This document shows, one piece after another, positions 14,210-19,653 of a DNA stretch of 64,000 nucleotides (its first letter is position 1; every line of letters starts with the position of its first letter). The notes under the pieces are model-generated. The model was not told the DNA's origin. It worked only from the letters and a program-made list of their open reading frames with translations, and did not search any database. The stretch lies in NCBI GenBank assembly GCA_019638675.1, contig JAHBTE010000001.1, positions 2,698,605 to 2,762,604 of the forward strand, written 5' to 3'. Source of the DNA: Fimbriimonadaceae bacterium. Lineage in GTDB: Bacteria; Armatimonadota; Fimbriimonadia; Fimbriimonadales; Fimbriimonadaceae. The translations under genes and the position numbers were made by a program.

Positions 14210-14974
14210 GTGAAAACCGTTGTCGCATTTTACAAATTCGTTGAATTGGCGGATTTTGCAGAAATGCGGCAATGGGTTAAGGATCACGGTCTACGCAATA
14301 ACCTACGAGGAACCATCCTCTTAGCTCCGGAAGGCATCAACGGTGGGCTTTCGGGCGAACCGGAGGAAGTTGAAGCCTTTTTTGCCGGGCTCGCTGAAGA
14401 TTCGCGATTTGCCGAGATCGAACGCAAGTATTCGCAACATGAAGACCATCCTTTCAAGCGATGGCTGGTGCGACTGAAAAAGGAAATCGTACGGATGAAA
14501 ATCCCGAATATTGATCCTAACCAAACGGTTGGAGAATACGTTTCGGCTCGCGATTGGAACGACCTCATTTCTGATCCAGAAGTAACGGTAATTGACTGCC
14601 GAAACGAATACGAAATCGACTTTGGAACCTTCAAAAATGCGATCAATCCGAAAACAATTGAATTCCACGAATTTCCTGAATACGTAGAAAAGAAACTGCC
14701 GCAGAAGGACGCGAAAATTGCGATGTTCTGCACAGGTGGAATACGGTGCGAAAAAGCTACGGCTTACATGAAGCAAATCGGCTACGAGCACATCTACCAC
14801 CTTCAAGGCGGGATTCTTAAATACCTTGAGGAAGTGCCAGAAGAAGATAGTTTATTTGAGGGATCATGTTTTGTGTTCGATCACCGCATCGCCCTTGATC
14901 ACAACCTGCAGCCGGTTCCTGGTGCAACCCGTGAATCAGCATTCGGGGACGATCACGGGTATTCGGAGAGCTAA
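14210..14974 (+). CDS. trhO: tRNA uridine(34) hydroxylase (rhodanese-domain), TrhO
   Basis: TrhO (YceA) uses O2 to convert U34 to 5-hydroxyuridine in a subset of tRNAs. Sequence: N-terminal acylphosphatase-like domain FYKFVELADFAEMRQWV...GTILLAPEGINGGLSG (about 6-50), then a rhodanese domain with VIDCRNEYEIDFGTFKNAINP and the active-site loop CTGGIRCEKAT, catalytic Cys at about 174. The length, 254, is shorter than E. coli TrhO but ends after the domain. GTG start, nine bases after the AlkD-like stop. The last 39 bp overlap the convergent sdaA coding region. Confidence 0.9.
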   Translation: MKTVVAFYKFVELADFAEMRQWVKDHGLRNNLRGTILLAPEGINGGLSGEPEEVEAFFAGLAEDSRFAEIERKYSQHEDHPFKRWLVRLKKEIVRMKIPNIDPNQTVGEYVSARDWNDLISDPEVTVIDCRNEYEIDFGTFKNAINPKTIEFHEFPEYVEKKLPQKDAKIAMFCTGGIRCEKATAYMKQIGYEHIYHLQGGILKYLEEVPEEDSLFEGSCFVFDHRIALDHNLQPVPGATRESAFGDDHGYSES

Positions 14975-16348
14975 ACCGCCTTCGCTGGTTTCTTTGTAGC
15001 GGCTGTTCATATCCAGCGCGGTTTCCCACATCGTCACGATCACATCGTCAAGGCTGATTTTCGCGAGAGTGGGATCGCTGGCAAGGGCAATATTCGCCGC
15101 TGTGATCGCCTTCATCGCGCCCATTGTGTTGCGTTCAATACACGGCACCTGAACTAATCCGCCAACCGGATCGCAGGTGAGGCCCAGATGGTGTTCCATT
15201 GCAATTTCCGCCGCCATCAGAATTCGGGCCGTGTCGCATCCGAGCATATAAGCATGACCCGCCGCCGCCATTGCCGAGCTCACGCCGATCTCTGCCATAC
15301 ATCCACCCATCGCCGCGCTGATAGTTGCTCCTTTTTTGAATAGACATCCGATTTCTGATGCCACGAGGATGAATTCTCTTAGTTGCTCGTGGGTGAACCC
15401 AAGGAAAGTATGCCCGTACATCATAACAGCGGGGATCACGCCCGCCGCCCCGTTTGTTGGAGCGGTAACGACCCGACCAAATGCCGCATTTTCTTCGTTC
15501 ACCGCGAGGGCGAAAATACTAATCCATCGGAGCGTTTGCTGAAAATTAGGGCTAGAATAGCGCATATTTTCCACCCATTGGTCGAAGCCTTTGTAGCTTC
15601 GCCCGCTCATGAGGTCAGCGTTGAGTTTCTTTGCGCGACGAGTGACATTTAAGCCACCGGGGAGCACACCTTCCGAATGGCAGCCACGATAGATGCACTC
15701 GCGCATAGTGGCCCAAATTTCGTCTAAGCCTGCGTCGGTTTCTTCCTTTGGTCGCCAGCACCGTTCGTTGGCACGAACCATATCTGGAATGGTTAATCCC
15801 TTCAGCTCGGCATACCGCACAATATCCGACGCATGCTGAATGGGATGTGGGAGAAGAACGCATCGGTTTTCACCAAGTTCTTCATCTTCTGTGACAACGA
15901 ACCCGCCACCAACTGAATAGTATGTGCGTGAACGGATTTCCGAGTTCTTCAACCAAAAGGTGTATTTGATTCCATTAGGGTGGAACGGAAGTGTTTCATC
16001 CATGTGGAACACAATGTCGCTTTCCGGATTGAAAGTTATCTGATGTTTGCCCGCTAACAACATCACACGATCTGACTTCAATGAAGCGATCGTTTGATTG
16101 ATCTCATCAACCGGGCACGTTTTGGGATCCCAGTCCATTAAGCCAAGCTGAACGGCGATATCGGTTCCGTGTCCTTTTCCCGTTTTTGCCAAGCTTCCGT
16201 ATAGATCGACTTGCACTCGTTCTATATCGTCCGAATAGAAATCGCGTAGAAACAGTCGCCCAGCACGCCAAGGGCCGAGAGTGTGCGAACTCGATGGGCC
16301 AACCCCGATCTTGAAAATATCAAACGTGCTGATCGACTCTCGAGACAT
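14936..16348 (-). CDS. sdaA: L-serine ammonia-lyase, iron-sulfur dependent, single chain
   Basis: Deaminates L-serine to pyruvate using a [4Fe-4S] cluster. Begins [27 protein letters not shown], the serine-binding SSSHT motif of the beta-like domain. The alpha-like catalytic domain has [22 protein letters not shown] and [18 protein letters not shown], whose three Cys match cluster ligands, and ends [15 protein letters not shown]. The open frame runs 54 codons further upstream without family similarity; the ATG at 16348 was chosen because it begins the domain and has TATACT six bases upstream. Convergent with trhO (39 bp overlap) and divergent from a membrane-anchored gene across a 48-bp spacer. 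Confidence 0.93.
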
Positions 16349-16349
16349 G

Positions 16350-16389
16350 ATTTGAGTATACGACCACTTGGTCAAGCGAATTTGAGTAT
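16350..16389. promoter_or_regulatory. Divergent regulatory spacer with direct and inverted repeats
   Basis: Between sdaA and the divergent gene, ATTTGAGTAT occurs twice (16350-16359 and 16380-16389), 30 bp apart start to start, flanking an inverted repeat GACCA-ct-TGGTC (16362-16373). TATACT (minus strand, 16355-16360) serves sdaA, and TATCCT (plus strand, 16387-16392) could serve the other gene. Confidence 0.5.
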
Positions 16390-16396
16390 CCTCAGC

Positions 16397-17089
16397 ATGA
16401 TGGTGGAAGCGATCAAGTGGATTCTGGTTGGCCTCGGAATCGGGGTTGCAGTCGAATACGCCCGCCACATCGCTTCGCTCAAGGAGTTGCTCAAACTCCC
16501 AGATTTCCAAACTGAAGCAGAAGAAGCACAGAAGAAGGCATCTTCCCTTGAATCACTCGTTCCGAGCCTCAAAGCGGACGTCGAAGCACACCTCAAAACA
16601 ATCGCCAAGTTAGAAGCCGATCTGAAATCAAAACCTGCGGTCGCTGAGGCAATGGTTGAAGTTCAAGCTCCGGTAGAGACAGCAAATCTCGATCAAATCA
16701 CTTCCCTGTCGCCACAATTCCGAGCCTTGCTCATTGAATCCGGAGTGACTTCTCCCGATCAGCTCGCGGCTAAATCCGAAACCGAACTTTTGGATATCGT
16801 TCAAGCCCAGCCTTGGGATTTAGTGAATCCAGCGGATTGGATTGCAGAAGCACGATCGCTGTCAACGGGAACAGTTCCCGTAGTTTCTCCAAGCACAGAG
16901 CAGGATGATCTCCATGCTCTACCCAGCATCACTAAGCAACAAGCAACTGCGCTGCAGAAATCAAATTTTGCAACGTTCGCCGCCATCAGCCAAGCAACCG
17001 AATCACAGTTGCTAGAAGCGGTAGAAGCAATGCCGTGGGACATTGTGAACGCAGAGGAGTGGATCAGTTATGCCAAATCCCAAGCCTAA
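16397..17089 (+). CDS. Membrane-anchored coiled-coil protein with two HhH-like repeats
   Basis: 230 residues from the first of two adjacent ATGs. One transmembrane helix (about 5-25, IKWILVGLGIGVAVEYA), a coiled-coil stretch (about 30-80), a linker, then two tandem repeats of about 50 residues: LSPQFRALLIESGVTSPDQL...PWDLVNPADWI (about 110-155) and LPSITKQQATALQKSNFATF...PWDIVNAEEWI (about 178-225). Each resembles a helix-hairpin-helix/DUF4332-like unit ending in PWD[LI]VNxx[DE]WI. Such units often bind DNA or other proteins. Overlaps a small membrane-protein gene by 20 bp. Function unknown. Confidence 0.65.
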   Translation: MMVEAIKWILVGLGIGVAVEYARHIASLKELLKLPDFQTEAEEAQKKASSLESLVPSLKADVEAHLKTIAKLEADLKSKPAVAEAMVEVQAPVETANLDQITSLSPQFRALLIESGVTSPDQLAAKSETELLDIVQAQPWDLVNPADWIAEARSLSTGTVPVVSPSTEQDDLHALPSITKQQATALQKSNFATFAAISQATESQLLEAVEAMPWDIVNAEEWISYAKSQA

Positions 17090-17207
17090 ACCACGCCCGA
17101 CCAACGTTCAGGAAATGATTGAGCGCACTAAGCGATTCGCGGTCGAAAAGGTGTTCATCCTCGCGATGATCGTGATGCTCAGTCTGTGGTTCTGGAACGC
17201 GCACTAA
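17070..17207 (+). CDS. Small single-pass membrane protein (45 aa)
   Basis: An ATG at 17070 opens a 45-codon frame overlapping the upstream gene by 20 bp. The product has a basic Pro-rich start (MPNPKPKPRPTNVQEMIER), then a predicted transmembrane helix (VFILAMIVMLSLWFW) and a two- to three-residue tail. The pairing with the preceding membrane-anchored protein suggests the two are co-translated and may interact. Its stop overlaps the stop of the convergent PLP enzyme by 4 bp. Unknown family; length is short, so comparison with relatives is needed to confirm it. Confidence 0.55.
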   Translation: MPNPKPKPRPTNVQEMIERTKRFAVEKVFILAMIVMLSLWFWNAH

Positions 17208-18358
17208 CGCAGGTGCGCAAAGCCTTGATCCAAATCAGCTTTCAAGTCTTCTATGTCTTCTAAGCCAAGATACAAGCGTACGACCCACTGCTCCTCGGGC
17301 CAATCCATGGGTTTGCCGTAGATCGGCACGGCAAGGCTTTCGAATCCACCCCAGCTCACGCCCATCTGGAAAATGTCCAGCGATTCAGCAAATTTAGCGA
17401 GCGCTTCATCGGCTTGGACTTTGGGTTTGAAAGTAATCAAGCTGTTATGCCCGGTTTGCTGAGACTCAATCAGTTCTCGTTGCGGATGATTCGGGTCTCC
17501 GGAGTAATAGATTTCCTCTACTTCTGGGCGTGTCTTCAGAAAGTCAAACATCAGAGCCCCCATCCGTTTGGCTTCATCCATCCGCAATCGCAGAGTTCGC
17601 ATCCCCCGGAGCATCAACCAGCTATCGAACGGCGCGAGTCTCCCGCCAAACCACTGGCCTTCACGCATAGCGATTTCTTCGCAGATTGCCTTGCTCGCGC
17701 AGAGTGCCCCGGCAACCACATCGCTGTGTCCGCAAAGGTATTTGGTTGCGCTATGAACTACGATATCCACCCCCATAGCGGCAGGATTCTGGAATAGCGG
17801 CGAACAGTTGCTGTTATCTGTGATCGTTTTGATTCCCTTCGCTTTCGCAATCGCGGTGATCGCTCGGAAGTCCTGGATTCTAAACAGAACACTACTGGGA
17901 GATTCGAGATAAATGAGCTTGGTATTGGGTTGGATTGCGGCCTCAATTTCGTCGGTATGGCCAACGACATAGGTTGTTTCCACTCCATAACCCGGCAGAT
18001 AGTCGGTCATGAACGAGCGGGTGGGGCCGTACGAAGTATCCACGCAAACAATGTGGTCACCAGCGCGGACACTATGCATGACCGCCGCGGTGATGGCGGC
18101 CATTCCGCTGGCAAAAACCATCGCGGATTCCGTTCCTTCAAGCATCGCCAGTTTCTTTTCGACGATGGTCATGTTGGGATTGCCGACGCGGGAGTAAACG
18201 TATCGTTCCTCCACGTTGGGGTCGGCGATCATCCCTTTGAGACTTGCGAGCGTATCGTGAACGAAAAGCGAGGTTTGGAAAATCGGCGGAGTCACAGCTC
18301 CCGCGTAGTGTTTTTCTTCGCCCAAATGTTGGAGGTGGGTTTCTTTGCCCCAAGTCAT
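17204..18358 (-). CDS. Cys/Met metabolism PLP-dependent enzyme (cystathionine beta-lyase-like)
   Basis: Fold-type I PLP enzyme of the trans-sulfuration family. Visible: YSRVGNPNMTIVEKKLAMLE (the YSRxxNPT phosphate-binding loop from the partner subunit), FASGMAAITAAV, TITDNSNCSPLFQNP (Asp binding the pyridine ring), and VVHSATKYLCGHSDVVAGAL with the Schiff-base Lys at about 206. Sequence alone does not separate cystathionine beta-lyase, gamma-synthase and methionine gamma-lyase; the DNSNCSPLFQ variant of DNTWAxP resembles MetC-like enzymes. 384 residues. Monocistronic; TAAAGT lies six bases upstream of the ATG. Confidence 0.85.
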   Translation of the reverse strand: MTWGKETHLQHLGEEKHYAGAVTPPIFQTSLFVHDTLASLKGMIADPNVEERYVYSRVGNPNMTIVEKKLAMLEGTESAMVFASGMAAITAAVMHSVRAGDHIVCVDTSYGPTRSFMTDYLPGYGVETTYVVGHTDEIEAAIQPNTKLIYLESPSSVLFRIQDFRAITAIAKAKGIKTITDNSNCSPLFQNPAAMGVDIVVHSATKYLCGHSDVVAGALCASKAICEEIAMREGQWFGGRLAPFDSWLMLRGMRTLRLRMDEAKRMGALMFDFLKTRPEVEEIYYSGDPNHPQRELIESQQTGHNSLITFKPKVQADEALAKFAESLDIFQMGVSWGGFESLAVPIYGKPMDWPEEQWVVRLYLGLEDIEDLKADLDQGFAHLR

Positions 18359-18429: not shown

Positions 18430-19653
18430 ATGATCAGCGCAATCTTAGCTACACTTGTCGGTCAGAGCTCGGCACCAGAAAAACTGGATTGGCAGACTTT
18501 CCCGCAAATCAAAGCTCACGCTTCGCTCAAAGCGAGCGATTTGGTTTTTCAAAGTCTAGATTGGCGCACAAGAATTTTTGACGGAGTCGTGGACGGTCAG
18601 AAGCAAGATAAGCCGATTTTGATGTGGCTCTATTTCGGTGATCCCCGCGGGCATTGCTGACAAAACGGAGCTAAAACCAGACAGTTTGTCTGGACTCGCC
18701 CCGACATCGCCCAATACGTCAGCCAGAACTTGATTCCCATCGCCGCGAACGACGTGGATTACCGAGAAAACCCGGACACGCAAAACTGGGAGCATCGGCT
18801 GGTTACCAAAATGTTCTCGGTATCCAGCGAAGGGATTTTCCAAGGCATATACGTGGGTACACCGTCTGGCAAACTTCTCGCACGATGCAACGCAGGCTGG
18901 CCCGATCCCGATGCTAGCGAGACGCTCAACAACATCAAAAAAGCGGTTGCTAAGTATTACGCGATGCCTAAATCCGAGCGACTGCTGTCGAATCTGCCCA
19001 ACCCGGCGACTGACCGGCTGAAGTTCAAAGAGGATCAGTTCACCAAACCCAAAGGCACGCTTGACTTGAGGGTGACAAAACGTGGTTACGCTTACCCAGG
19101 CATGACAACATTTGACGAACGGCACCCAATGTTTTTTGGCATCGACCGACTGTGGTTCAAACCATCCGAACTCCAAACTTTGTTGCCTGGTTCGCTGACG
19201 GTTGGCTCATCGAAGCAAGTCACCGGGCCGATGCGCACGCGCTGGGTGTTGCACAACCACATGCAAAAAGCGGCAAGTGCGTGGGATGAACCTCATATCC
19301 AAGTCGGAAACTTCACGAGCACAATCACAGAAGTGAGCGGCTCAAAAGTCAATTTGGAAATCAAAGCACACTACGAACTCAAAGCAAACACGCAATGGAA
19401 CACAGGTTCTTATCGCGGCGATCTGCTGGGCAAGCTGACTATTGATTCGCGAACATTGGAATGCTCTGCGTTTGAAGCAACGATGTTTGGTCGTTCTACG
19501 CTCGGCAAATTGCTTCCGAACGCCCATGCAGGTGACCCATCGCAAATGGTGGCGAGCTATATCACCATCAATCCGCAAACCGATGCCGACGACAACATGG
19601 TTCCCAGCAACTGGATGTGGGGATACGGATTAAATTGGTGCCAGACGCGGTAA
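18430..19653 (+). CDS. Candidate selenoprotein: thioredoxin-like protein with in-frame TGA (Cys-Sec)
   Basis: One reading frame of 408 codons is broken only by TGA at 18658-18660 (codon 77). Before it lies a short hydrophobic start (MISAILATLVGQSSA) and a thioredoxin-like strand, ILMWLYFGDPRGHC; after it the frame continues QNGAKTRQFVWTRPDIAQYV...LIPIAANDVDY, the order expected around a thioredoxin active site. The TGA directly follows TGC, giving Cys-Sec at the redox position. A 7-bp hairpin with a GTT loop begins 16 nt after the TGA. Residues about 190-407 form a beta-rich domain of unknown family. The start has AGGGAGAG upstream. If the host lacks selABD machinery, this is instead a recent nonsense mutation or a two-part gene with restart near 18730. 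Confidence 0.65.
18677..18693 (+). other. Candidate bacterial SECIS hairpin
   Basis: CCAGACA-gtt-TGTCTGG: a perfect 7-bp stem whose 3-nt loop begins with G, located 16 nt (stem) and 23 nt (loop) after the in-frame TGA. An outer GAG/CTC pairing (18668-18670 with 18695-18697) could extend it. Known bacterial SECIS hairpins lie immediately 3' of the UGA inside the coding sequence, with a G at the start of the apical loop. Confidence 0.6.

Follow-up and report, generated by a model that had tools for sequence, protein, structure and literature searches.

The window analyzed here, a 64,000-nucleotide stretch of a Fimbriimonadaceae genome (Armatimonadota), contains a frame of 407 residues closed by TAA and crossed by a single in-frame TGA, raising the question of whether this codon is a stop or encodes selenocysteine (Sec) and, if the latter, in what kind of protein. 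The TGA lies exactly where the first-pass annotation had placed it (18658-18660, residue 77), directly after a TGC, in the local context GDPRGHC-U-QNGAKTRQFVWTRPDIAQYV. On the combined evidence of sequence comparison and structure modelling, the gene very probably encodes a selenoprotein of the thioredoxin-fold redox kind (Table 1). A reading in which TGA has been reassigned to a sense codon was considered and rejected: TGA closes 8 of the 49 long ORFs in the window and the selA and selB frames of the same genome contain no internal stops, indicating that the genetic code is not reassigned. Export of the protein is likely, since the N-termini of its homologues are mostly hydrophobic and one of them carries a lipobox-like LCAAC.

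Table 1. Features of the selenoprotein gene, in window coordinates.
Feature	Position	Strand	Basis
Selenoprotein gene, 407 aa with U77, two domains, predicted export	18430..19653	+	Frame reading, homologues, AlphaFold2 model
Probable signal peptide, short hydrophobic N-terminus MISAILATLVGQSSAP	18430..18477	+	Inference from sequence, homologue N-termini
Thioredoxin-fold domain, residues ~24-179	18499..18966	+	AlphaFold2; VIA-align Z 12.8 to 3f9u; profile match E 1.2e-4
TGC, Cys76 (Sec -1), probable resolving Cys	18655..18657	+	Cys at -1 or -2 in 76/79 Sec-containing homologues
TGA, Sec77, N-terminus of helix alpha-1 (78-86)	18658..18660	+	Conserved TGA column; AlphaFold2 model
Putative bSECIS apical hairpin CCAGACA GUU UGUCUGG, 7 bp; loop opens with G, 23 nt past the UGA	18677..18693	+	Sequence, synonymous constraint, covariation
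Q138-G139-I-Y141, invariant QG.Y; Gly at the cis-Pro-loop Pro of 3f9u	18841..18852	+	Profile alignment
C-terminal beta-rich domain, residues ~205-390, not placed	19042..19600	+	AlphaFold2 model

Conservation of the TGA codon

Searches with the window protein, with stops read through, returned matches in 51 of 291 Armatimonadota genomes, nearly all of them presenting exactly one internal TGA. This TGA occupied the same column in all 79 homologues extracted from the phylum, and neither Trp nor Arg, which the first-pass annotation had regarded as evidence against Sec, was aligned to it. The coding character described earlier on both sides of the codon was borne out by orthologues and paralogues, which, when read through, keep the TGA together with both of its flanks; its presence is hence not a chance occurrence.

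In the window clade (10 members) the motif reads GDPRGHCUQNG, and once GACUQNG, while outside this clade it is mostly NGHPxGCTUNNG. A partner Cys precedes Sec in 76 of the 79 Sec-bearing homologues, at position -1 in the window clade and at -2 in most others. Position +3 is occupied by Gly in 76 of the 79 and by Ala in the other three. The vicinal Cys-Sec pair originally proposed therefore describes the window clade and a few other sequences, but not most family members, which present Cys-Thr-Sec. The window's genome encodes three family members in total, the other two (L048:203-1390, minus strand; L049:664-1860, plus strand) carrying NGHPLGCTUNNG and NGHPTGCTUNNG, respectively. Several paralogues were also observed in some other genomes, and one planctomycete presents a tandem pair (L116).

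A DNA pattern scan of approximately 85,000 species genomes, in which TGA, TGC and TGT were equally allowed at the Sec codon, identified at least 117 loci, mostly from metagenome-assembled genomes. Among the matches listed, about 114 are true members, all of them with TGA; three TGC loci were discarded as chance matches. According to their record titles, these members belong to the Planctomycetota, Verrucomicrobiota, Kiritimatiellia, Poribacteria, Latescibacteria, Neomarinimicrobiota, Chloroflexota and Armatimonadota. The titles of two records, JADZEW010000008.1 (L170, Methanoregulaceae) and SYMT01000628.1 (L142, Actinomycetota), look mislabelled, as both agree in length with Armatimonadota contigs (G130:C8 and G211:C598). 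The scan loci overlap in part with the 79 extracted homologues, and approximately 170-190 distinct genes were read in all (168 distinct around the TGA). When prevalence was assessed with a family profile (E < 1e-40), the family was detected in 48 of 291 Armatimonadota genomes (16%), in 91 of 392 sampled Planctomycetota genomes (about 23%) and in 2 of the 289 genomes of a Verrucomicrobiota sample; 78 of the 81 Armatimonadota matches at this threshold contain the TGA. No relatives were found with a single-protein scan of genome contigs, where exact peptide patterns reach close relatives only, and no family match was found in plasmids.

A probable recoding hairpin downstream of the TGA

The perfect 7-bp hairpin with a GTT loop reported in the first-pass annotation is located precisely at its assigned coordinates, 16 nt after the TGA, and presents a constrained folding energy of -13.0 kcal/mol. 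It fits the model of a bacterial SECIS (bSECIS), the prediction of which had been put forward as a check on the Sec assignment, and two lines of evidence support this identification. In 1580 gene pairs whose proteins are 42-75% identical, synonymous codon identity, scaled to the average for the gene itself, peaked at codons +5, +6, +7, +8, +9, +10 and +12 after the TGA, with ratios of 1.5-2.0 against a mean of 0.97 (sd 0.18, 387 columns), the seven highest values in the gene. Furthermore, paired positions covary in two hairpin types. In the type found in the window, 30 sequences show 97% pairing and 10 double-change cells, versus 4.2 in shuffled controls (0/500). In a second type, the loop of which lies five nt earlier, 41 sequences show 91% pairing and 33 double-change cells, versus 11.1 (0/500). 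The two groups were selected by protein motif, near-duplicates in the second were thinned by hand, and kinship can inflate this shuffle control. Sliding the partner columns destroyed pairing. No significant extra stability relative to synonymous shuffles was detected in the minimum free energy of the region (a 57-nt stretch). Short hairpins probably shift the energy of such a stretch too little, and the analysis relied on codon constraint and covariation for this reason. The constrained codons and covarying hairpin after the TGA constitute strong evidence for a bacterial SECIS.

Selenocysteine machinery and gene neighbourhood

All four components of the Sec machinery whose presence had been set as a check are encoded in the window's 2.85-Mb genome: a tRNA-Sec with anticodon TCA (72.9 bits), selB (345 bits), selA (441 bits) and selD (342 bits). 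The selD match (L222, G000:C1:651775-652689, minus strand) presents one in-frame TGA, on account of which the SelD of this genome is probably itself a selenoprotein. Across the Armatimonadota, selA was detected in 43 of the 47 genomes with a TGA copy and in 105 of the 244 other genomes (Fisher p 1.7e-10, a value that overstates independence because the genomes are related). Two of the four selA-less genomes with a TGA copy have selB above the cut-off; among the four are G027 (78% complete), with neither selA nor selB above the cut-off, and G070 (73% complete). Conversely, selA is absent from three (G110, G144, G145) of the four genomes whose sole copy lacks the TGA. In addition, four planctomycete loci (L103, L113, L166 and L209) have selA only a few kb from the family gene, and three of them have selB there as well. 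These loci belong to Rhodopirellula-like planctomycetes, and an FAD-dependent dehydrogenase-like ORF, a suspected selD fusion, recurs in them.

The gene neighbours at 114 loci did not reveal any general conserved operon partner pointing to a substrate. In the window, a divergent gene for a PLP enzyme of Cys/Met metabolism (17204-18358, minus strand) lies 71 bp upstream of the selenoprotein gene, and genes for a rhodanese (14210-14974) and a serine dehydratase (14936-16510) are also nearby. This sulfur context was set aside as a clue to function, the PLP enzyme gene being kept beside 3 of 9 orthologues (with short flanks), which is too little.

Predicted structure and relationship to known families

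AlphaFold2 models were obtained for the window protein (pLDDT 84, pTM 0.86) and for a homologue (L176; pLDDT 93.5, pTM 0.92), with Sec given as Cys in both cases. Both consist of a thioredoxin-fold domain followed by a beta-rich domain, and in the window protein residue 77 immediately precedes the helix formed by residues 78-86. The thioredoxin fold recognized in the first-pass annotation is in agreement with solved structures, the best match being 3f9u (Z 12.8, rmsd 2.4 over 113 residues; Z 12.9, rmsd 1.9 over 105 residues), the C-terminal domain of a putative exported cytochrome c biogenesis-related protein from Bacteroides fragilis (DsbD-gamma-like). The two share the thioredoxin fold and probable export, but 3f9u contains no Sec, presents CVNC in place of UNNG or UQNG and Pro in place of Gly, and its match does not extend to the C-terminal beta domain. 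In the profile alignment with this protein, the first Cys of CVNC is matched by Sec and the second by the Gly at +3. The C-terminal domain, which the initial reading had described as beta-rich and could not place, is beta-rich in the model as well and has no clear PDB match; Foldseek, with this domain searched together with the rest of the model, returned only low-probability matches to beta-barrels (PsbO, OmpA).

In the printed results, none of the Pfam or NCBIfam (June 2026) models reached its cut-off, and the window protein itself had no match in Pfam, PF13899 included. Weak matches to PF13899 (Thioredoxin_7) and PF03190 (Thioredox_DsbH) were obtained in the same region of the domain for 11 and 3 of 56 members, respectively, but all printed scores are below the cut-off (15.4 for L176 and 19.8 for L054 against 27 bits), and the CxxC of canonical thioredoxins and PF13899 is replaced by U-x-x-G with Cys at -1 or -2. 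A recent catalogue comprises 119 prokaryotic selenoprotein families and subfamilies (2026, PMC13188914), and none of its entries has this motif. Several catalogued families (SaoL, SaoC, KCU-star, UshA-like and Thioredoxin-like Sec.1) also contain a Cys next to Sec or one residue away from it, but the 56 family members gave no match to the NCBIfam models among them, and the model for the Trx7/PDZ selenoprotein with CxxU (NF041199) had no match among the members searched. The main texts of openly accessible literature on the Armatimonadetes/Armatimonadota, Planctomycetes, Rhodopirellula and Verrucomicrobia yielded no description of the family. The protein had initially been assigned to a family that was not recognized, and its absence from Pfam, NCBIfam and the catalogue is in keeping with this. 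With no model at its cut-off and no catalogue entry presenting the motif, we designate these proteins a new thioredoxin-fold selenoprotein family.

Homologues lacking selenocysteine

Fourteen Sec-less homologues covering the site were identified (L069, L077, L092, L100, L102 and L228-L236). The first-pass annotation had looked for support to homologues with Cys aligned to the TGA, but such proteins barely exist: a single one (L102; E 1e-66 against the family profile) carries CDDC, with Cys in the Sec column. The other 13 have Ser, Asp, Gly or a similar residue in this column and have also lost the Cys at the partner site. In a planctomycete clade (L228, L229 and L231), GNPLGLPDxAPS or GNPLGLVDFPPS replaces the Sec motif, and from their sequences these proteins are probably non-catalytic paralogues that keep the fold. 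Simple replacement of Sec by Cys almost never happens in the family. Because loss of Sec usually takes the whole redox pair with it, Sec appears to be chemically irreplaceable in these proteins.

Proposed function and alternative interpretations

The data suggest a mechanism in which the UGA at codon 77 would be decoded as Sec by SelB and tRNA-Sec with the aid of the hairpin located 16-32 nt downstream. The protein, presumably exported, is predicted to fold into a thioredoxin-like and a beta-rich domain. Sec77 would occupy the nucleophilic position of the first Cys in the CxxC of DsbD-gamma/Thioredoxin_7-like proteins, with Gly replacing the second Cys, and Cys76 (or, in most family members, the Cys at -2) may resolve Sec as a selenenylsulfide. 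This role is not universal, since three of the 79 Sec-bearing homologues lack a partner Cys. The most likely activity would be selenol-dependent redox catalysis outside the cytoplasm, in which a disulfide, a peroxide or a similar oxidised substrate is reduced.

Within this framework, thiol/selenol redox chemistry is probable, and it is unlikely that the Sec site instead handles a metal or a selenium or sulfur compound. The cis-Pro and its role are a general feature of the thioredoxin fold, and loss of this residue permits metal binding in thioredoxins. The Gly aligned with the cis-Pro of 3f9u, within the invariant QG.Y, together with the loss of the second Cys, could open the site in this manner, and the lack of CxxC and near-absence of Cys versions suggest chemistry beyond that of thiols; the invariant columns, however, do not contain a conserved set of additional Cys or His ligands. 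Still less probable is that these redox selenoproteins are a distant offshoot of the known VPGUxxT thioredoxin-like selenoproteins (NF041382/NF041383; PMC13188914, Table 1) rather than a separate family. This is the nearest selenoprotein model, likewise thioredoxin-like and Sec-containing, and it shows weak profile similarity to 7 of the 56 members (best E 0.0018), but the one printed score (L054 against NF041383) is 11.3 bits for a cut-off of 275, most members, including the window protein, have no match, the model spans 287 residues against approximately 400 here, and the Sec motif is GCTUNNG or GHCUQNG in place of VPGU. Finally, it is scarcely credible that translation truly ends at the TGA, or that the codon marks a pseudogene lesion, with a relic or a separate gene following. 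Standard annotation would truncate the protein there, and TGA serves as an ordinary stop for other ORFs of the window, but the same TGA is present in about 190 genes from several phyla, which are conserved over their full length before and after it, and codon constraint and hairpin covariation come after it.

Implications

Taken as a selenoprotein family, these sequences very likely represent a large, uncatalogued and Sec-dependent group of exported thioredoxin-fold proteins, distributed over several phyla, in which Sec is apparently chemically irreplaceable. Such a family would have escaped notice because annotated frames end at the UGA and the Cys homologues on which discovery methods depend are nearly absent, and its example shows that methods built on Cys/Sec pairs can overlook large families. 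It adds a widespread selenoprotein to phyla with poorly described selenoproteomes, and its approximately 190 Sec forms, set against one CxxC form, provide a natural test of the reasons for keeping selenium.
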